Under the pieces are notes generated by a model, which saw only the letters and a program-made list of their open reading frames with translations, was not told where the DNA came from and made no database searches. The position numbers and the translations under genes were made by a program. 64,000 bases of DNA from Acidobacteriota bacterium (GTDB taxonomy: Bacteria > Acidobacteriota > Terriglobia > Bryobacterales > Bryobacteraceae), in the NCBI GenBank assembly GCA_026393985.1, contig JAPKZB010000006.1, positions 17,891-81,890 of the forward strand, written 5' to 3'. The number at the start of each line of letters is the position of its first letter. Position 1 is the stretch's first letter. Positions 115 through 59,807 of this stretch are shown piece after piece.

Positions 115-1017
115 TCACCCCCGCGGCGCGTAGTAGCCCTTCCGGGCCCGCACAATCAGATCCTTCCGCGTCTTCACCCGCACATTCACCTCGTGAAATA
201 AGCCATCCGCCTTCAGCGGCTCCGGCCGGTACAGCACGTTGTACTGGTGCCGCAGTTCGTTCGAGATGTTCTCAAACGACTGCGCCAACTCCCGCGCCTG
301 AAACGGGAAAAACGCCATCCCACCCGTCTCGCTCGAAAAATACCGCAAAACCTTATCGCCGTCTTTCTCCTGCTTGCTGTTGTTGGTCGAAATCGTGTAC
401 ACCACCACGTCCGCCTTCTGCGCCATCTCCAGCGCTTGGTCGCGCGTGTAGCGGCTCGCGTTGTCGTCGCCGTCCCCCAGCACCACCATCGCCCGCCGGA
501 ACTTATGTCGCGGCTGGTCCTGCATCAGCTTATCCCGGCACGCAAAATAAATCGCCTCGTACAGCGCCGTCCCGCCCCCCGGCCGCAGGCCCCGTATCGC
601 CTTAGCCAACTGCTCCGTGTTGCCCGTCAGGTCCGCCACCAGTTCCGCGCCGGAGTCGTAGCTCACAATCACGGCTTTATCTTCCGGGCGCACCACGGAG
701 TTCACAAACTCCACCGCCGCCTCTTGTTGAAACTTGAAACGGTCCCGCACGCTGTTTGACGAGTCCACCAGAATGCCCAAACGCAGCGGTAGGTCCGATT
801 CCGCCACAAATTCGAGAATCTGCTGCGGCTTCTTCTCCTCGCGGATCTCGAAATCCTCCTTGGCCAGGTTGGTGACGAACCGCCCCTTCTTATCCGTCAC
901 GGTGAACAGCATGTTCACCCGGGCGACATCCAGCACAATGCGGCTCTGCTCGTCCGCGGCCTGCTGCGCCGCGGCCGGAAGAGCCGCCAGGGAACTGAGA
1001 AACGTGCGTCGGTTCAT
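115..1017 (-). CDS. VWFA-related (acidobacterial type) secreted protein
   Basis: A 300-residue protein starting MNRRTFLSSLAALPAAAQ, a twin-arginine-like or Sec export signal. A von Willebrand factor A fold follows. The metal-ion-dependent adhesion site is visible as DSSNS after a hydrophobic strand, a Thr in GGGTALYEA and an Asp in VVLGDGDDNAS. Families of this kind are abundant in Acidobacteriota, and their ligands are mostly unknown. The ORF is open further upstream, but ATG 1017 is chosen because it overlaps the stop of the pseudouridine-synthase gene as ATGA, implying translational coupling, and because the signal peptide begins there. Binding role is inferred from the fold. Confidence 0.85.
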   Translation of the reverse strand: MNRRTFLSSLAALPAAAQQAADEQSRIVLDVARVNMLFTVTDKKGRFVTNLAKEDFEIREEKKPQQILEFVAESDLPLRLGILVDSSNSVRDRFKFQQEAAVEFVNSVVRPEDKAVIVSYDSGAELVADLTGNTEQLAKAIRGLRPGGGTALYEAIYFACRDKLMQDQPRHKFRRAMVVLGDGDDNASRYTRDQALEMAQKADVVVYTISTNNSKQEKDGDKVLRYFSSETGGMAFFPFQARELAQSFENISNELRHQYNVLYRPEPLKADGLFHEVNVRVKTRKDLIVRARKGYYAPRG

Positions 1018-1916
1018 AAACTGCCTGACTCGATTATAGCTTCGAGCTCCGGGGGCAAAGGAGCTTCCACCGTCACCCGCTCCCCCGTGCTCGGCAGCTG
1101 GAACCCTAGCCGCGCCGCGTGCAGAAAAAAGCGCTCCGGCAGCAGCTCCGTGGCCCGCGCCCCGTAAAGCCGGTCCCCGAGAATCGGATGCCCCAGCGAC
1201 GACAGGTGCACCCGGATCTGGTGCGTCCGCCCCGTCCCGATCTTCACCTCCAGCAGCGCGTGCCGCCGGAAGCGCTCCAGCACCTTCCAGTCCGTCAGCG
1301 CGTGCCGCCCCGTCTCGAGGCGGCACGTCATCTTCGTCCGGTGCACCGGATCCCGCGTAATCGGCTTCTCCACCCGCCCGCTCGCCGCCGCGGGCAGCCC
1401 CTGCACCACCGCCAGATAAATCTTCTCCACCTCGCGCGAGGAAAACTGCTCGCTCAGCGCCCGGTGCGCCGCGTCCGTCCGCGCCACCACCAGCACTCCG
1501 CTCGTCTCCTTATCCAGCCGGTGCACAATGCCCGGCCGCTCGTCCCCCCCGGCCGTCGAAAGCTGCCCGAAATGGTAGAGCAGCGCGTTCACCAGCGTCC
1601 CCGAATGCTGCCCCGCCCCGGCGTGCACCACCACCCCTGCGGCCTTGTTCACCACCACCACGTCCTCATCCTCGTACAGCACCGCCAGCGGCAGTTCCTC
1701 CGCCTCGGCCCGCAGCGGCGGCCGCTCCATCGGCTCCACCCCAATCCGCTCCCCCCCCTTCAGCACCAGCGACGCCTTCGCCGCCCCGCCGTCCACCCGC
1801 ACCCGCCCCGCCTTCACCCACTCCTGCAAACGCGACCGGCTGAACTCCGGCAGCTTCCCCTGCAGAAAGTGATCAAGGCGCTGTCCCCGCCCGCTGTCAT
1901 CAACATGAAACTCCAC
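1014..1916 (-). CDS. RluA-family (RluC/RluD-like) pseudouridine synthase
   Basis: A 300-residue enzyme converting specific uridines of 23S rRNA to pseudouridine, judged by family. The N-terminus is an S4 RNA-binding domain (QRLDHFLQGKLPEFSRSRLQ, then VRVDGG). The catalytic motif IVHRLDKETSG carries the nucleophilic Asp, and GRTHQIRVHLSSLGHPI is the conserved C-terminal motif. The start is GTG at 1916. It is divergent from galU, with only 20 nt between the start codons. A -10-like GATACT lies 6 nt before the GTG, leaving no space for a ribosome-binding site. Which of RluA, RluC or RluD it matches cannot be fixed from sequence alone; RluD is likeliest from the S4 domain. Confidence 0.92.
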   Translation of the reverse strand: MEFHVDDSGRGQRLDHFLQGKLPEFSRSRLQEWVKAGRVRVDGGAAKASLVLKGGERIGVEPMERPPLRAEAEELPLAVLYEDEDVVVVNKAAGVVVHAGAGQHSGTLVNALLYHFGQLSTAGGDERPGIVHRLDKETSGVLVVARTDAAHRALSEQFSSREVEKIYLAVVQGLPAAASGRVEKPITRDPVHRTKMTCRLETGRHALTDWKVLERFRRHALLEVKIGTGRTHQIRVHLSSLGHPILGDRLYGARATELLPERFFLHAARLGFQLPSTGERVTVEAPLPPELEAIIESGSL

Positions 1917-1936
1917 CTGTCCAGTATCCTGTGTAA
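1917..1936. promoter_or_regulatory. Bidirectional leaderless-type promoter core
   Basis: The 20-nt gap between two divergent GTG starts contains AGTATCCT at 1923-1930. Read on the plus strand, TATCCT ends 6 nt before the galU GTG. Read on the minus strand, GATACT ends 6 nt before the rluD-like GTG. The two -10-like hexamers overlap, and neither gene has room for a Shine-Dalgarno. No good -35 was seen for either direction. The hexamers are observed; promoter activity is inferred. Confidence 0.5.
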
Positions 1937-2821
1937 GTGATCCGCAGCGCGATAGTTCCCGTAGCCGGCCACGGCACCCGGCTCCTGCCGGCCACCAAGT
2001 CCCAGCCCAAAGAGATGCTTCCGGTCGCCCGCAAGCCCATCGTGCAGTACGTTGCCGAAGAGCTCGTCTCCAATGGCATCGAGAACATCTGCTTCGTCAC
2101 CGGACGCAGCAAAACCTCCATCGAAAACCACTTCGACTCCGACCCCGAACTCACCCGCGTCCTCACCGAAGGCAACAAACAGGACCTGCTCGACGAACTC
2201 AAGTTTGAAGAGCTTGCCGCCAAGTTCTACTACACCCGCCAGCGCGTCCAGCGCGGACTCGGCGACGCCATCCTCTGCGGCGAAAACTTCGCCGGCGAGT
2301 CAGCTTTCCTGGTCGCCCTCGGCGACTCCATCCTCGGCCTCAACGCCCAGTCCCGCAGCGTCTCCCGCATGGGCGAACTCTTCGCCGAACTGCGCGCTAC
2401 CTGCGTCATCGCCGTCGAAGAGGTCCCTGCCGAAGAGGTCCACCACTACGGCATCATCGACCCCGGCGAAGGGGAAGGCGATTGGACGCGCATCCGCAAC
2501 ATCGTCGAAAAACCCTCCCGCGACGCGGCCCCCAGCCGCTGGGCCGTCGCCGGCCGCTACGCCTTCTCCCCCATCATCTTCGACATGATCCGCCGCGTCA
2601 AACCCGACAAACGAGGCGAAATCCAACTCACCAACGCCATTCAACTCCTCTGCGAAGAGGGCAAACGCGTCATCGCCCTCAAACTCCCCCCGCAGGACAA
2701 ACGCTACGACATCGGCAACTTCCCCAGCTACTTTGAAACCTTCGTCGAGTTTGCCCTCGCCGACCCCCTCTACGGCGCCGAATTCCGCGTCACCCTAGAA
2801 AGGTTACTCAACCGCAAATGA
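1937..2821 (+). CDS. galU: UTP-glucose-1-phosphate uridylyltransferase
   Basis: A 294-residue cytoplasmic enzyme making UDP-glucose from UTP and glucose-1-phosphate. The N-terminal nucleotide-binding signature GHGTRLLPATKSQPKEML is complete, followed by KPIVQYVAEE and NICFVTGRSKTSIENHFD. Later family motifs include VALGDSI, VEKPS and GRYAFSP, and GEIQLTNAI. Length matches GalU. The start is GTG 1937, with no ribosome-binding site but a TATCCT hexamer 6 nt upstream. The stop overlaps the next gene's ATG (ATGA), so it is probably translated with the glycosyltransferase, and galE lies 3 kb away. Together these suggest UDP-glucose and UDP-galactose supply for surface glycans. Confidence 0.95.
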   Translation: MIRSAIVPVAGHGTRLLPATKSQPKEMLPVARKPIVQYVAEELVSNGIENICFVTGRSKTSIENHFDSDPELTRVLTEGNKQDLLDELKFEELAAKFYYTRQRVQRGLGDAILCGENFAGESAFLVALGDSILGLNAQSRSVSRMGELFAELRATCVIAVEEVPAEEVHHYGIIDPGEGEGDWTRIRNIVEKPSRDAAPSRWAVAGRYAFSPIIFDMIRRVKPDKRGEIQLTNAIQLLCEEGKRVIALKLPPQDKRYDIGNFPSYFETFVEFALADPLYGAEFRVTLERLLNRK

Positions 2822-4167: not shown

Positions 4168-5758
4168 ACGGGCTCCGCGCCCCCTGCACATTCACATTCA
4201 GCACATAAGGCACCTGCGACCGGAATGCCCTTTCGAGCGCCGGACCCACCTGGCTCAGCTTCGTAATATTCTCCCCCCCGCACCCAAACCCCTTCGCAAT
4301 CTGGTCATACCGCGTCCGCCGCAACTCGCACGCCACCGTCTACCCCAACAGCTCCCCCTGCAACTCCCGCTCCAGCCCCCACCCCCCGTCGTTGCCCACA
4401 ACAATCACCAGCGGCAGCTTGTACCGCACCGCCGTGTCCAGCTCCGCCAGATAAAACCCAAACGAACCATCCCCCGTCACCATCATCACCGGCTGCTTCG
4501 GCCGGTGCATCTGCAGCGCAATCGCGTTCGGCAGCGCCGCCCCAATCGTCGCCATCGGCCCCAGCCGCAGCCACCCGCCCGGATGATTCGCCGGCAGCAT
4601 CACCCGCCCCCAGTGCACAAAATCCCCCCCGTCCCACGACAGCAGCGGATCCACCGGCAGCGTCCGCCGCAGCTCGGCGTAAAACGACGCCGGATGCATC
4701 ACCTTATCTCCCGCGTGCGCCGCCGCCAAGGCATCCATATCCGCCGTCCACGTCGACGCCGGCACCCACCCCGGCGCCGTCCACTTGCCCAGCTTCCCGT
4801 TTAGCGCCGTCAACACCGCCCGGACATCGGCACACAGCCCCACCGCCAACTCCCGGTTCAGCCCCAGCTCCGGCGCGTGAATATCCACCTGCGCAAACTT
4901 CGCCTCCGGCGAAAACAGCCGCGGCCCACCCATCGCCAGCCGGTAGTCGATCCGCTTGCCCAGCACCACCACCACATCCGCCTGCCGGAACACCTCCACG
5001 CACGCCCGGTTCAACGACGGGTCCGCGTAGCCCAGACTCGGCGCCAAACCCCGCGCCATCGTCACGTCATAGTACGGCAGCCGCGACCGCTCCAGAAACT
5101 CCCGCAGCGCCAGCCCGGCATCGGCCCACCACAAGCCGCTCCCGCCAATCACCACCGGCCGCTTCGCCCCCTTCAGTAGCTGCAGCAGAGGCGCCACGTC
5201 CGGCGCCCCGCTCGCCACCGTCGCCTGCGGCACCCGCGGCGCTCCGTTCGCCGCCCCGCGAAAACAGTCCACCGGAATCGTCAGATGCGCCACCCCCATC
5301 CGCCCCGTCGAAGCCTCGCTATAAGCCTTCCCCAATGCAAACGGAATCTGCGCCGCCGACGTCACCGTATGCGTCCACTTCGCCGCCGGCGCCGCCATCG
5401 CCGCCTGGTCCAGGTCCTGAAACACCACCCGGTGCCGCATCATCTGCGCCGGCGCCCCGCTCACCGTAATCAGCGGCGTGCCGTTCGAGTTGGCCGTAAT
5501 CAACCCCGTCAGCGAGTTCGTATGCCCCGGCCCCCCCGTCACCAGCGACAGCGCCGGCCGCCGCGTACAGCGCGCCCACGCATCCGCCGCATGCACCACC
5601 GCCGCCTCGTGGCGCATATGGATCACCTCGATCCCCGCGCCCTCCGACTGCGACAGCACCTCGTTCAAATGGTCTCCCACCAGGGTAAACATCCGGTCAA
5701 TCCCGAGCCTCTTCAGCGTGCCGAGGAAAGCCGCGGCGCCATTAGCGTTCTCTGCCAT
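4133..5758 (-). pseudogene. Thiamine-diphosphate (acetolactate-synthase-like) enzyme with in-frame TAG
   Basis: The frame encodes about 541 residues, normal for the ThDP-dependent decarboxylase family, but TAG at 4340-4342 stops it after residue 472. The same frame then continues as TVACELRRTRYDQIAKGFGC to a TGA/TAA-type end at 4133, clearly the missing C-terminus. Visible motifs are RHEAAVVHAADAW with the activating Glu near the N-terminus, GGPGHTNS, and the cofactor site VTGDGSFGFYLAEL followed by VVGNDGGWG. The stop removes about 67 residues next to the active site. A Gln or Trp codon one base away would restore it. It may be a sequencing error, a recent nonsense mutation or readthrough. 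The substrate is unclear: acetolactate synthase, benzoylformate decarboxylase-like and oxalyl-CoA decarboxylase-like members are all possible. Confidence 0.8.
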
Positions 5759-5775
5759 ACTTAAGATACTCTCGC
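5759..5775. promoter_or_regulatory. Second short bidirectional promoter core
   Basis: Only 17 nt separate the ATG of the ThDP enzyme (minus) and the ATG of galE (plus). The gap contains TAAGATACT. GATACT at 5765-5770 ends 5 nt before the galE ATG, and TATCTT on the minus strand ends 4 nt before the other ATG. As at galU, there is no space for two leaders or ribosome-binding sites. Promoter function is inferred. Confidence 0.4.
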
Positions 5776-6750
5776 ATGTCCAACATCCTCGTCACTGGTG
5801 GTGCGGGCTACATCGGCTCCCATACCGTCCACCAACTCACCCAGCGCGGCCACCAGGTCACCGTCCTCGACGATCTCTCCACCGGCTTTCGCGACGCCGT
5901 TCCCGAACCCCAACTCCACATCTGCTCCCTATTCGACACCGAGCAGGTAACCCACCTCCTCCAGCGCCTCCAAATCGACGCCGTCGTCCACTTCGCCGCC
6001 TTCATCGCCGTCGGCGAATCCACCCAGGAGCCCGAGCGCTACTTCACCAACAACGTCGCCGGCAGCCTCTCCCTGTTCAGCGCCATGGCCGCCGCCGGCG
6101 TCAAAAAACTCGTCTTCTCCTCCACCGCCGCCGTCTACGGCAACCCCCTCTCCACCCCCATCCCCGAAACCGCCCCCATCGCCCCCGTCAACCCCTACGG
6201 CGAAACCAAGGCCACCGTCGAACGCACCCTCGAATGGCTCGACCGCTGCCGCGGACTCCGCAGCGTACGCCTCCGCTACTTCAACGCCTGCGGCGCCAAC
6301 GAAGCCGCCGGCCTCAGCGAGCGCCACGTCCCCGAAACCCATCTCATCCCCCTGCTCATGAAGGCCGTCGTCACCGGCCAGCCCGTCACCATCTTCGGCA
6401 CCGACTACCCCACCCCCGACGGCACCTGCATCCGCGACTATATCCACGTCGACGACCTCGCCAAAGCCCACATCGCCGCCATCGATCACCTCCTCTCCGG
6501 CGGCCCCAGCGAAGTCTTCAACGTCGGCACCGGCCGCGGCTTCTCCGTCCGCGAAGTCCTCGCCGCCGTCGAACAGGTCACCGGCCGCCCCGTCCCCCAC
6601 GTCTTCGGCCCCCGCCGCGACGGCGACCCCGCCGAACTCGTCGCCGACTCCTCCAAACTCCGCGCCCGTCTCGGCTGGAACCCCGACCACAGCACCCTCC
6701 ACCAAATCGTCGCCTCCGCCTGGCCCAGCCAACAGCGCCGCTGGGCGTAA
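5776..6750 (+). CDS. galE: UDP-glucose 4-epimerase
   Basis: A 324-residue short-chain dehydrogenase/reductase that interconverts UDP-glucose and UDP-galactose using bound NAD. The Rossmann motif GGAGYIGS is at residues 8-15, followed by the Ser of SSTAAVYG and YGETK with the catalytic Tyr and Lys. RYFNACGA, GTDYPTPDGTCIRDYIHV and NVGTGRGFSV are diagnostic GalE blocks. The length is typical. The start is ATG 5776, with GATACT 5 nt upstream and no ribosome-binding site. With galU and the membrane glycosyltransferase nearby, it fits a nucleotide-sugar supply role. Confidence 0.96.
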   Translation: MSNILVTGGAGYIGSHTVHQLTQRGHQVTVLDDLSTGFRDAVPEPQLHICSLFDTEQVTHLLQRLQIDAVVHFAAFIAVGESTQEPERYFTNNVAGSLSLFSAMAAAGVKKLVFSSTAAVYGNPLSTPIPETAPIAPVNPYGETKATVERTLEWLDRCRGLRSVRLRYFNACGANEAAGLSERHVPETHLIPLLMKAVVTGQPVTIFGTDYPTPDGTCIRDYIHVDDLAKAHIAAIDHLLSGGPSEVFNVGTGRGFSVREVLAAVEQVTGRPVPHVFGPRRDGDPAELVADSSKLRARLGWNPDHSTLHQIVASAWPSQQRRWA

Positions 6751-21038: not shown

Positions 21039-24000
21039 ATGTCGAAGAAGTTGCTCCTCTGTCTGCTCCCCGCCGGAGCCGCGTTTTTCTCCTGGGCCCA
21101 GACCGCCGAGCCCCCCATGCAAAAGGTGGACTTCGAGCGCGACGTCCGCCCCATCTTCGAAAAATCCTGCGCGAGCTGCCACGGCCCCCAAGTCCAACTC
21201 GGGGCCCTGCGGCTCGACTCGAAATCCCTGGCCTTCGCCGGTGGCCAAAGCCGCCAAGCCGGCATCGTCCCCGGCAAGCCCGAACAAAGCACCCTCTTCC
21301 AGCGCATCGCCGGAACCACCGACCAGGCCCGCATGCCCATGGGCGGCAAACCCCTCGACGCGGCCGCCATCAATACGATCAAAAACTGGATCGCCCAGGG
21401 CGCTGAATGGCCCGAAGCCGCCAGCGCCAAAGCCGCCGAAATCAAAAAACACTGGGCCTACATCCCGCCCGTCCGGCCCAGCATTCCCCAAAATGCCGGC
21501 CATCCTATCGACTATCTCGTCCGCGCCAAACTCGCCGCCGAAGGCCTCTCCCCTTCGCCCGAGGCCGACCGGACCACTCTGCTCCGGCGCCTCGCGCTCG
21601 ACCTGACCGGCCTGCCGCCCACCCCGGCCGAAGTCGACGCCTTCCTCGCCGACAAAAGCAAAAACGCCTTCGAAAAGCAGGTCGAACGACTCCTCGCCTC
21701 GCCCCATCACGGGGAACGCTGGGGCCGCCACTGGCTCGACGCCGCCCGCTACGCCGACTCCGACGGCTTTGAAAAAGATAAACAACGCTTCGTCTGGTTC
21801 TACCGCGACTGGGTCATCAAAGCCATCAACGAAGACAAACCCTACTCCCAGTTCGTCATCGAGCAGCTCGCCGGCGATCTGCTCCCGAACCCCACGCAAG
21901 ACCAGCTCGTCGCCACCGGCTTCCTCCGTAACTCCATGGTGAACGAAGAAGGCGGCGTCGACCCCGAACAGTTCCGCATGGAAGCCATGTTCGACCGCGT
22001 CGACACCGTCGGCAAGAGCATCCTCGGCGTCACCATCGGCTGCGCCCAGTGCCACAACCACAAATTCGACCCCCTCACCCAGGAGGAGTACTACAAAATC
22101 TTCGCCTTCCTGAACGACTCGGCCGAAGGCAGCGTCAGCGTCTACACCCCCGAGCAGCAGATGCAGCGCGCCGACCTCCTCCGGCGCATCAAGGAAATCG
22201 AAGACGACCTCCAACACAAGAATCCCGACTGGCGCGAGCGCCTGAACGCCTCCGCCAAGCCCCAACTCGCCTGGACGACCCTGACCCCCGCGGTCGAGGA
22301 CATCTCCACCGGCGGCCAGAAGTACCTGCCCAAAGGCGACGGCTCCATGCTCGCCGCCGGCTACGCTCCCACGCGCCATCGCGCCAAAATGGTCGTCAAA
22401 ACCAGCGAGACCGGCCTCCAGGCCATCCGCGTCGAACTGCTCAAAGATCCCAACCTGCCGCACGGCGGCCCCGGGCGGTCCATCGAGGGCACCGGCGCGC
22501 TGACGGAAATCGAACTCGAAGTCGCCCCGCAGGACGCTCCGGACAAGATCGAAAAGATCAAGTTCGTCCGCGCCTCGGCCGACTTCGAAATGGCGCCCAC
22601 CCCGCTCAAACCCATCTACTGGGACAAGACCGACAACTCAAAACGCCTCCTCGGTCCCGTCTCTTACGCAATCGACGGCGACGACAAAACCGCCTGGGGC
22701 ATCGACGCCGGCCCCGGCCGCCGGAATCAACCCCGGCAGGCCGTCTTCATCACCGAAAAGCCCTTTGGCTACCCCCAGGGCACCATCCTGAACATCTACC
22801 TCAAGCAGAACCACGGAGGCTGGAACAGCGACGATAATCAGAACAACAATCTGGGACGCATGCGCCTGTCCGTCTCTACCGCCGCCGACGCCGTCGCGCA
22901 GGGGCCGCTCCACTTCTCCACCTGGCGGCGCACCGTCCCCGAGTGGAAAGAGCAAAACGAAGCCATAGAGGCGCTATGGAAGCAGCACCCGGAGCCGACC
23001 TCGCAACTGGTCCTCGGCCGGGCCGAAACCATGCGCGACACCAAGCTCCTCCTGCGCGGCGACTTTCTCAAACCCGGCAAAGCCGTCCAACCCGGCGTGC
23101 CTGCCTTCCTGAACCCGCTCCCGCCCGGCGCTGAACCCAGCCGCCTGACCTTCGCCAAATGGCTCGTCGATCGCCAGTCGCCCACTACTGCCCGCGCCTT
23201 CGTCAACCGCGTCTGGCAGGCCTACTTCGGCCAGGGCCTCGTCACCACGCCCGAAGACCTCGGCAAACAAAGCGACGCTCCGTCCAATCCGGAGCTGCTC
23301 GACTACCTCGCCGTCGAGTTCATGGACTCCGGCTGGAGCATGAAGAAGCTGCACCGCCTGATCGTGTCGAGCGCCACCTACAAGCAAAACTCGAAGGCAA
23401 CGCCGGAACTGCTCTCGAAAGATCAATTTAACAAGTGGTTAGCCCGCGGGCCCCGCCTCCGCGTCGAAGGCGAAGTGGTTCGCGACATCACGCTCGCCGC
23501 CGCCGGCCTGCTCAATCCAAAGATCGGCGGCCCGGCCGTCTATCCCGCCGCGCCCGAGTTCCTCTTTCTGCCGCCCAACTCCTACGGGCCCAAGATCTGG
23601 AAGGAGGAGAAGGGCGAGGACCGGTACCGCCGGGCGGTGTACACGCACCGCTACCGCTCGGTGCCCTATCCGATGCTCTCGAACTTCGATACCCCGAACG
23701 GCGACGTCGCCTGCGTGCGCCGCTCCCGTTCGAACACCCCGCTGCAGGCGCTCACGGCGCTGAACGAACCGATGTTTCTTGAAGCCGCCCGCGCGCTCGC
23801 GCTGAAGACGCTGCGCGAAGGCGGCAAATCCGACGCCCAGCGCGTCGAGTTTGCCTTCCGCCGCGTGGCGGCGCGCAAGCCGGCGCCGGAGGAGCGGACG
23901 ATTCTGCTCGCGCTGCTCGAAAAACAGACGCAGCGCTTCACCAGCGGCAGCCTGAACCCGAAGGACCTGCTCGGCGGCGACCCGCCCGCCGGCGTCGCCC

Positions 24001-24074
24001 CGGCCACCGCCGCGGGTTGGACCGCCGTGGCCCGGGTTCTTCTCAACCTCGACGAAACCATCACGAAGGAATAA
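21039..24074 (+). CDS. PSCyt1 cytochrome + DUF1549/DUF1553 protein
   Basis: A 1011-residue exported protein with a signal peptide (MSKKLLLCLLPAGAAFFSWA). A planctomycete-type cytochrome c domain follows with haem motif CASCH near residues 44-48. DUF1549 begins near IDYLVRAKLAAEGLSPSPEA and contains GERWGRHWLDAARYADSDG and a second haem-like CAQCHNHKFDP near residues 331-335. DUF1553 occupies the C-terminal third (RLTFAKWLVDRQSPTTARAF, then SNTPLQALTALNEP). Such proteins occur next to DUF1501 genes in Planctomycetes, Verrucomicrobia and Solibacteres, where a role in complex-carbohydrate or sulfated-glycan use is suspected but not proven. The DUF1501 gene follows after 3 nt. Confidence 0.9.
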   Translation: MSKKLLLCLLPAGAAFFSWAQTAEPPMQKVDFERDVRPIFEKSCASCHGPQVQLGALRLDSKSLAFAGGQSRQAGIVPGKPEQSTLFQRIAGTTDQARMPMGGKPLDAAAINTIKNWIAQGAEWPEAASAKAAEIKKHWAYIPPVRPSIPQNAGHPIDYLVRAKLAAEGLSPSPEADRTTLLRRLALDLTGLPPTPAEVDAFLADKSKNAFEKQVERLLASPHHGERWGRHWLDAARYADSDGFEKDKQRFVWFYRDWVIKAINEDKPYSQFVIEQLAGDLLPNPTQDQLVATGFLRNSMVNEEGGVDPEQFRMEAMFDRVDTVGKSILGVTIGCAQCHNHKFDPLTQEEYYKIFAFLNDSAEGSVSVYTPEQQMQRADLLRRIKEIEDDLQHKNPDWRERLNASAKPQLAWTTLTPAVEDISTGGQKYLPKGDGSMLAAGYAPTRHRAKMVVKTSETGLQAIRVELLKDPNLPHGGPGRSIEGTGALTEIELEVAPQDAPDKIEKIKFVRASADFEMAPTPLKPIYWDKTDNSKRLLGPVSYAIDGDDKTAWGIDAGPGRRNQPRQAVFITEKPFGYPQGTILNIYLKQNHGGWNSDDNQNNNLGRMRLSVSTAADAVAQGPLHFSTWRRTVPEWKEQNEAIEALWKQHPEPTSQLVLGRAETMRDTKLLLRGDFLKPGKAVQPGVPAFLNPLPPGAEPSRLTFAKWLVDRQSPTTARAFVNRVWQAYFGQGLVTTPEDLGKQSDAPSNPELLDYLAVEFMDSGWSMKKLHRLIVSSATYKQNSKATPELLSKDQFNKWLARGPRLRVEGEVVRDITLAAAGLLNPKIGGPAVYPAAPEFLFLPPNSYGPKIWKEEKGEDRYRRAVYTHRYRSVPYPMLSNFDTPNGDVACVRRSRSNTPLQALTALNEPMFLEAARALALKTLREGGKSDAQRVEFAFRRVAARKPAPEERTILLALLEKQTQRFTSGSLNPKDLLGGDPPAGVAPATAAGWTAVARVLLNLDETITKE

Positions 24075-24077
24075 ATC

Positions 24078-25436
<1,359 letters not shown>

Positions 25437-25468
25437 CCGGAATCTCGCATTTTTCGCGTAGGATTAGT

Positions 25469-28400
25469 ATGGGTCGATACCTCCTTCTGTTTTGCCTGCC
25501 GGCGTTGTGGGCAGCTCCAGTTCCCTCGCTCAAGCTGAAAACAGTGGAGGCGCCGGCGGCGCGCCGGCCGCTGGCGCGAGCGGCGCGGGTGGCCGAGTAC
25601 TGGCTCGGGCCGATGGCGGCGGTCGAGATCGCTCCCAGCGTGCTGAAGCCGGGGGTGACCCGGGCCGGGGCACACCGGACGGGGGGACGGGAGTGGCTCG
25701 CGCAGGGCCAGTGGAGCGATCTAGCGGACGGCCGGGCGGTGTTTCAGGCGGCGCTGCGGAGTCCGGGGGCCAAGGGCCTGCGGCTCGAAATTCTCGGCCT
25801 GGCGCCGGGGGCGGGCCGCTTGTGGATGTACCCGGGCGATGAGGCCAGCCCGGCGCAGCCGGTGGGACCCTACGAGGGCGGGGAGGATTTCTGGACCGGT
25901 CTTGTGGAGGGTGAGTCGCTGGTGCTGGAGTTCGAGGTTCCGGCGGGAGCGCCCCGGATACTTCCCTTTGCGGTGGGACGGATCAGTCACCTGTTCGCGA
26001 ATCTCGCGCCGGGAAAGGCCGGGGCACGGGCAGCGGCACTCCCGTGCAATCTGGACGTGGCTTGTTACCCCGATTGGGACGAGCGCGCGCGCAGCGTGGG
26101 ACGGTATCTGTTTGAAACCGATGGCGGCGGGGCGTTCTGTTCGGGCTCGCTCATTAATACGCGGAACAACAGCGGCATCCCTTACTTTCTGACGGCGGAC
26201 CATTGCGTCAGTAACCAGGCCGAAGCCCGAAGTGTGCAGGTGTTCTGGTTCTATCAGTCGAGCATTTGCAATGGTCCGCCGCGCAACCTGCGGGACGTGC
26301 CGACCACCCTGGGTTCGACCTTCCTGACCAGCGGATCGCTCGAGTTGGGCGACTATTCGCTGCTGCGCCTGACCGGGACGCTGCCGAATGGTGTCACGCT
26401 GTCGGGGTGGACGTCGACGGATCCGGAGGTGGGGGCGGAGGTGACCGGGATTCACCATCCGACCGGGGATTACAAGCGGATTTCGTTTGGCAACCGGGCC
26501 GAACCGATTCTGACGCGGGGCCGGCCGGAGCCGATGTACCACACGATTACGTGGCGGGAAGGGGTAACCGAGGGGGGATCGTCCGGTTCGCCGATTTTCA
26601 ACCGGGACGGGCAGATTGTCGGGATGTTATCTGGCGGACCGAAGCCGCCGCCGGGAAAGACCGAGTGTGATTTGCGGCCGGCCTACGACTGGTACGGGCG
26701 GTTTTCGGTGGCCTATCCGGCGCTGCAGAGCTATCTCGAGGAGCGGACGACGGGCACGACGCCGACCCCGCCGCCGACCGGGGGGACGACGGGGACGCTG
26801 CTGGCGAGCGGGGTACCGGCGAACTTCACGGTGGGGCCGGTGGATTCGCCGATGCTGCTCAGCGGATCGTCCATCTATCGCGTGGAGGTGCCGGCGGGGG
26901 CGACGCGGCTCGAGGTTCGTTTGCGGACGAGTACGGCGGGCGCGGATCTGGACCTGTTTTTGCGGCGGGGGAGCGCGCCGGTGCTGAGCGGCGGGCGGGT
27001 GGTGGCAGATACCTCCTCGACGACGGACAGCGGCGATGAAACGATTGTGATTACCCCGAGTTCGGCCCCGGCGCTGCAGCCGGGCACCTACTTTATCGGG
27101 CTGGCGTTGTTCACGACCGAGACGACGGTGCGCGGTACGCTGACGGCGACGGTAACCGGCGGGACGGTGACGCCACCGGCTTCGGCGGCGGTGGCGTTGA
27201 CTTCGGGGCAGACGCGGACGATTACGATTGAACCGACGACGGCGGGGAGTCTGTTAACGGGGGCAGCGGCTTACCGGATTGACGTGCCGCAGGGGGCGAC
27301 GCGCCTGGAGATCCGGCTGGCGACGGATACGGCGAGCGTGGATGTGGACCTCTATGCGCGGCTCAATGCCGAGGCGGTGGTACAGAATCAGCAGGTGTTG
27401 GCGGATCACCGGTCGGAGGGTCCGGCGGGGAGTGAGGTGATTACGATCACGCCGACGTCGAGTCCGGCGCTGCGGGCGGGGACGTATTTCATCCACCTGG
27501 GGGTGTTTACTGCGAACACGCGGATAACGGCGCGGCTGACGGCGACGGTGACGGGTGGGACGACCACGCCGCCGGTCTCGGCGGCGGTAGCGCTGACTTC
27601 GGGACAGACGCGGACGATTACGATTGAACCGACGGACGTGCCGCAGGGGGCGACGCGCCTGGAGATCCGGCTGGCGACGGATACGGCGAATGTGGATGTG
27701 GACCTCTATGCGCGTTTCAATGCCGAGGCGGTGGTACAGGATCGGCAGGTGGTGGCGGATCACCTTTCGGAGGGCCCCGCGGGGAGCGAGTTGATTACGA
27801 TCACCCCAACTTCGAGCCCGGCGCTGCGGGCGGGGACGTACTTCATCCACCTGGGGGTGTTTACCGCGAACACGCGGATAACGGCGCGGCTGACGGCGAC
27901 GGTGACGAGCGGGACGGTGACCCCTCCGGTAACGACGACGCGGACGCTGACTTCGGGTGCGCCGGTGGCGTTTAACCTGGCGCCGGTGAATTCGCCGACC
28001 GTGTTTGGCGGGGAGGAGGCCTACCAGATTGCGGTGCCGGCCGGGGCGACGCGGTTGGAGGTGCGGGTGCGGACTACGACGCCGGGCGCGGATGTAGACC
28101 TTTACGTGCGGGCCGGGGAGGTGCCGCGGGTGAGCGGCGGGAGCGTGGTGGCGGACTACTTGTCGGAGGGCGATACGGGCGATGAGACGATTGTCATCAC
28201 CCGATCCGATACCCCGGCGCTGCGGGCGGGCACCTACTTCATTGCGCTGGGCCTGTTTACACGGAATGTCCGGGTGCAGGGTACGGTGCTGGCGACGGTG
28301 ACGACGGGCGGGGCCTCGAACACGGTATCCCAACCTTTGATTGCGGGGCTGCCGCAGCGCTTCCGGATTGCGCCGGTTTCGAGCGCCTCGCTGATCCTCG

Positions 28401-56327: not shown

Positions 56328-56352
<25 letters not shown>
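55363..56352 (-). CDS. Membrane-bound metal-dependent hydrolase (YbcI/DUF457-like)
   Basis: A 329-residue inner-membrane protein. The N-terminus MDNVTHSLAGVMLSRAGLNR, with SNIPDADIV and YHRHLTHALVVAPLMALPP, carries the His and Asp residues typical of the LexA-binding/YbcI (DUF457) family, proposed to be metal-dependent hydrolases. Several membrane segments follow, then a periplasmic C-terminal domain. It overlaps the lipid-kinase gene by 25 bp and the ALDH gene by 4 bp. The substrate is unknown. Confidence 0.85.

Positions 56353-59807
<3,455 letters not shown>

Follow-up and report, generated by a model that had tools for sequence, protein, structure and literature searches.

A 20-nt gap between divergent rluD- and galU-type genes as a candidate shared leaderless promoter in Bryobacteraceae

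The window analysed here (the whole stretch of DNA, 64,000 nt long) holds three intergenic sites where divergent genes start close to each other with putative -10 promoter elements between them. The genes and features concerned are:

1014-1916, minus strand: RluA/RluD-family 23S rRNA pseudouridine synthase (S4 + PseudoU_synth_2), GTG start, predicted leaderless
1917-1936: site 1, 20-nt gap between divergent genes, CTGTCCAGTATCCTGTGTAA
1923-1930, both strands: core AGTATCCT, putative overlapping -10 elements, invariant in 8 genomes
1923-1928, minus strand: GATACT, candidate -10 hexamer for the rluD-type gene, at 6 nt from GTG 1916, the same in 8 close genomes
1925-1930, plus strand: TATCCT, candidate -10 hexamer for the galU-type gene, at 6 nt from GTG 1937
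1937-2821, plus strand: GalU-type UTP--glucose-1-phosphate uridylyltransferase (best-matching model TIGR01099, cut-off not reached), GTG start, predicted leaderless
4340-5758, minus strand: acetolactate-synthase-like thiamine-pyrophosphate enzyme, ATG start at 5758
5759-5775, both strands: site 3, 17-nt divergent gap ACTTAAGATACTCTCGC, with GATACT at 5765-5770, 5 nt from the galE ATG
5776-6750, plus strand: GalE, UDP-glucose 4-epimerase, ATG start at 5776
56328-57266, minus strand: YegS/DAGK-type lipid kinase, TTG start at 57266
57273-57280, minus strand: site 2, AGTATCCT, with GATACT (minus) 6 nt from the kinase TTG and TATCCT (plus) 14 nt from the ligA ATG
57295-59223, plus strand: LigA, NAD-dependent DNA ligase, ATG start at 57295

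The window also shows a flip of the GC skew at about 24000-28000, where values of about -0.2/-0.3 give way to about +0.1/+0.3; this may mark an origin or terminus of replication, or a strand switch of another kind.

The initial annotation described site 1 as an octamer placed 6 nt from both GTG codons of a 20-nt gap, and this was confirmed: the core is centred exactly midway between the start codons, with one 6-nt spacer (1917-1922) towards the minus-strand GTG (1916-1914) and another (1931-1936) towards the plus-strand GTG (1937-1939). Both codons are the earliest possible starts of their respective frames, and a TAA stop stands directly 5' of the one at 1937. A Shine-Dalgarno sequence was looked for on the rluD and galU sides of the site and none was found, nor was there a recognisable -35 element. 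The two candidate -10 hexamers overlap on opposite strands within a few bp. Each agrees with TATAAT at just 4 of its 6 positions and has no G at -14.

The comparison among relatives bears on both sides of the gap. On the galU side, 30 of 52 relatives have TANNNT exactly 6 nt upstream of the start, whether rluD is the divergent neighbour or not, and the middle letters of the hexamer vary (TATCCT, TATATT, TATAGT, TATAAT). Around the rluD/galU pair itself two subclades could be distinguished, and their hexamers were read by eye from the printed loci. The near subclade (clade A, 8 genomes) keeps a gap of 20 nt with the core AGTATCCT and the rluD GATACT at 6 nt. The sister subclade (clade B, 7 genomes) has a gap of 22 nt with the core ANNNTATCCT, and there the rluD gene is preceded by TACAGT, TAACCT or TACCCT exactly 6 nt from its GTG, with the galU TATCCT still at 6 nt. 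Because -10 matches at 6 nt are found on both sides in the gap-20 as well as in the gap-22 subclade, both promoters appear to have outlasted a change of register. Conservation of the gap also exceeds that of four-fold degenerate sites in the flanking genes, with an identity of 0.97 in clade A (against 0.67 in galU and 0.55 in rluD) and of 0.85 in clade B (against 0.54 and 0.47). Taken as a TA-led leaderless gene, galU fits strictly (TATCCT at 6 nt without a Shine-Dalgarno sequence), and rluD was counted as one on the basis of GATACT in clade A, which has no T at -12, and of TANNNT in clade B. The comparison across relatives thus supports a leaderless promoter on both strands of site 1, and the -10 at 6 nt that had been proposed for both genes is borne out by conservation.

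That the core drives galU alone, with the rluD-type promoter lying deeper inside galU and the minus-strand likeness to a -10 being incidental, seems unlikely. The missing T at -12 in the clade A hexamer of rluD would fit such a one-sided arrangement, as would other sites of the genome, where often one side alone matches well; the rluD match nevertheless stays exactly 6 nt from its start in either subclade, although the gap differs by 2 bp and the letters have changed, and no Shine-Dalgarno sequence precedes the gene. It is more improbable still that both transcripts carry leaders and start inside the opposite gene, the AT-rich core just keeping the start-codon region unstructured. The weak -10 elements of site 1 and its lack of a -35 could be read in that way, but a strict 6-nt spacing together with conserved T-12, A-11 and T-7 and a free middle is the signature of a -10 rather than of AT richness.

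As a bidirectional promoter of the sigma-70 type, the gap at 1917-1936 would work through its two opposite-strand -10 elements, plus TATCCT and minus GATACT, which overlap by 4 bp, each of them setting the start of transcription on the first base of its own GTG. With transcription starting at this base, both mRNAs would therefore be leaderless and the promoter would be the entire intergenic region. RNA polymerase would sit on one and the same short stretch facing either way, in a single direction at a time. That transcription does start at site 1, that the messages are translated without leaders and that the two directions exclude each other is what we infer from sequence and its conservation, and competition between the two directions would be a further step.

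The genomic context of such starts was addressed with 1332 genes called on 1.79 Mb, about 30% of the genome, whose starts come from a simple custom caller. In this set, TANNNT before the starts of divergent genes peaks at 6, 7 and 8 nt, with 31, 25 and 24 cases against a background of 5.3. When matches are defined as 4 of 6 positions of TATAAT with A-11 and T-7, the excess of -10-like hexamers corresponds to about 19% of divergent genes, and the share of divergent genes with the general TANNNT signal comes to about 15-19%. Shine-Dalgarno words, for their part, cluster ahead of co-directional genes with short gaps. Among 153 TANNNT-led starts, 56% have G at -14 and no -35 is seen, a combination that suggests extended -10 dependence of this class. 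A published survey reported leaderless genes, with TANNNT some 12 bp ahead of the start, in three of three Acidobacteria genomes, where they make up 9.7-19.4% of genes (PMC3160421), and the share observed in our own genome agrees with this range.

Within this general signal the octamer itself has no special standing. The window has 2 copies of AGTATCCT against 0.29 expected, a number reached in 2 of 100 shuffles and mildly unusual, and the 1.79 Mb hold 16 copies, most of them unrelated to gene starts. The genome-wide search advocated in the initial annotation did return 4 gene sides exactly 6 nt from the octamer in 1.79 Mb, where simple arithmetic predicts ~0.01, and the exact symmetric layout, CAY-N6-AGTATCCT-N6-RTG, occurred at a single place in the 5.9 Mb genome. 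The idea that the octamer is a repeated motif in its own right was rejected, other TANNNT-type 8-mers being equally or more enriched in 1.79 Mb. It is one realisation of the general TANNNT leaderless signal and not the specific promoter element that it had been taken for.

The other two sites of the window fared less well as copies of site 1. The octamer had also been reported between the kinase and ligA, and AGTATC[C/G]T beside the kinase is indeed retained in most of the genus, in most cases 6-7 nt from the kinase TTG. Its distance to the start of ligA shifts within the genus, from 14 nt here to about 0 in others, and with ligA at such a distance and a spacing that varies, symmetric use has no support for this gene; the promoter reading of site 2, supported by sequence conservation, would hold for the kinase only. 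Two of the ligA/kinase loci, L060 and L061, carry ATC where the kinase TTG would stand, 6 nt after GATACT, which may be a non-standard start codon or indicate a different start. At site 3, the GATACT that had been compared with the octamer is present, but its reading as the same element finds no support, as it is restricted to our genome and one relative (G010); further relatives have other -10-like words near galE (GAAACT, TAATCT), and all that the minus strand offers is weaker hexamers of -10 type, at 4 or 7 nt from ATG 5758. A promoter of like kind is thus weakly supported at site 3.

A wider class of compact gaps emerges when the search is extended from the octamer to TANNNTA, a core that reads TANNNT on both strands. 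It is found in 9 of 22 divergent gaps of 15-30 nt, against 1.6 in shuffles (p=0.0005, with shuffling that misses some sequence biases), and in same-length controls it occurs in 6 of 78 co-directional and 0 of 14 convergent gaps. Two-sided -10 matches at 5-9 nt occur in 5 of the 22 divergent gaps against 0.47 expected. The lpxD/lpxA gap retains the core TATGATA across the genus and family relatives while its flanks drift, and a pair at C16:89163 has the core TATCGTA, with similar strings containing TATCGTA or TATGGTA in five relatives. In a family relative of another genus (G025, 400 kb) divergent pairs are few, almost none has a short gap and the leaderless signal is weak, and for this lack of short divergent gaps the compact form may be genus-specific. 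These observations support placing site 1 in a genus-wide class of putative compact divergent promoters, many of them with a symmetric TANNNTA.

Some further patterns were followed on the way. The string CAT-N5-TANNNTA-N5-ATG occurs 59 times in the genus against 6 for the reversed pattern, and 26 against 18 times outside it, in sums that count orthologues repeatedly. A looser version in 1.79 Mb, with an open-frame filter only, is not enriched (12 against 10), and the sole readable match in our own genome is not a divergent pair; on these three grounds, repeat-counted orthologues included, the enrichment was set aside as support. The N6/N6 version (21 against 15) is weaker than N5/N5, and so is N7/N7, where the total is pushed up by a repeated element of genome G014, CATGACTACATATAGTAGCAATAAATG, present there in about 15 copies, mostly at contig ends.

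The symmetry of these cores could also be that of an operator for a regulator instead of overlapping -10 elements, which we consider very unlikely. The cores are dyads, and in clade A the lpxA/lpxD palindrome is near-perfect over 17 bp, with a TATNATA core kept in relatives. Against an operator, the middle letters change from one gene pair to another and from orthologue to orthologue, with TA...TA and the closeness to the starts remaining constant, and the same hexamer stands at the same distance upstream of single, non-divergent galU genes. As for the lpxA/lpxD pair itself, it lies divergently at L210:14984-15010 (C64:94984-95010 in our own genome), with a 25-nt gap that contains the near-perfect palindrome AACGCTATCATAGCGTT. 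Altogether, site 1 is probably a shared bidirectional leaderless promoter of the sigma-70 type, belonging to a wider compact class for which the octamer does not serve as a dedicated element.

It had been suggested that compact symmetric promoters serve essential genes. The compact symmetric class is indeed found genome-wide, but the link with essentiality finds no support, as the gene set is mixed: by inspection, and by NCBIfam on ten proteins, it includes lpxA, lpxD, fabZ and dnaG alongside an M20 peptidase, hydrolases and uvrC. Nor are rluD, galU and galE essential as a general rule.

Both components of this proposal are already known, and their leaderless-bidirectional combination follows naturally from them. 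Bidirectional bacterial promoters with a symmetrical -10 were described by the Grainger group (PMC10268837), the commonest geometry being 18 bp between start sites (TANNNTA), where positions -7 and -11 coincide reciprocally, with other arrangements allowed. Like them, site 1 would have one AT core read as a -10 on both strands, and we count as shared the reciprocal placing of A-11 and T-7 and the location, in their case mostly between divergent chromosomal genes. Unlike their 18-bp optimum, which the TANNNTA cores found elsewhere in our genome do fit, site 1 lacks the TANNNTA geometry and predicts a distance of 21 bp; its hexamers share 4 bp, and both of its products would be leaderless mRNAs. 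With the leaderless genes of Acidobacteria it has in common the same motif at the same distance and, in this genome, a similar gene share; that survey classifies genes singly, and the part of it available to us does not describe a shared divergent arrangement (PMC3160421). No bacterial description of leaderless genes combined with bidirectional or overlapping promoters was found in the open-licence papers searched.

As a tentative proposition, for which the chances seem to us slightly below even, this genus may have systematically fused leaderless initiation with the bidirectional -10, in such a way that many divergent pairs, including lpxA/lpxD, would be separated by little beyond one shared core, their expression being coupled by competition for one polymerase site and neither 5' UTRs nor operators having any space. 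The shift of register between gaps of 20 and 22 nt shows a way in which an element of this type can change in evolution with both predicted promoters kept, and gene-start annotation in Acidobacteriota is also helped. If start sites confirm this reading, these gaps would be minimal natural promoters, about 20 bp initiating two genes, and leaderless starts would put the translation signals of both genes in the same gaps, which would then offer a direct test of whether two genes become coupled when polymerases compete for one -10.
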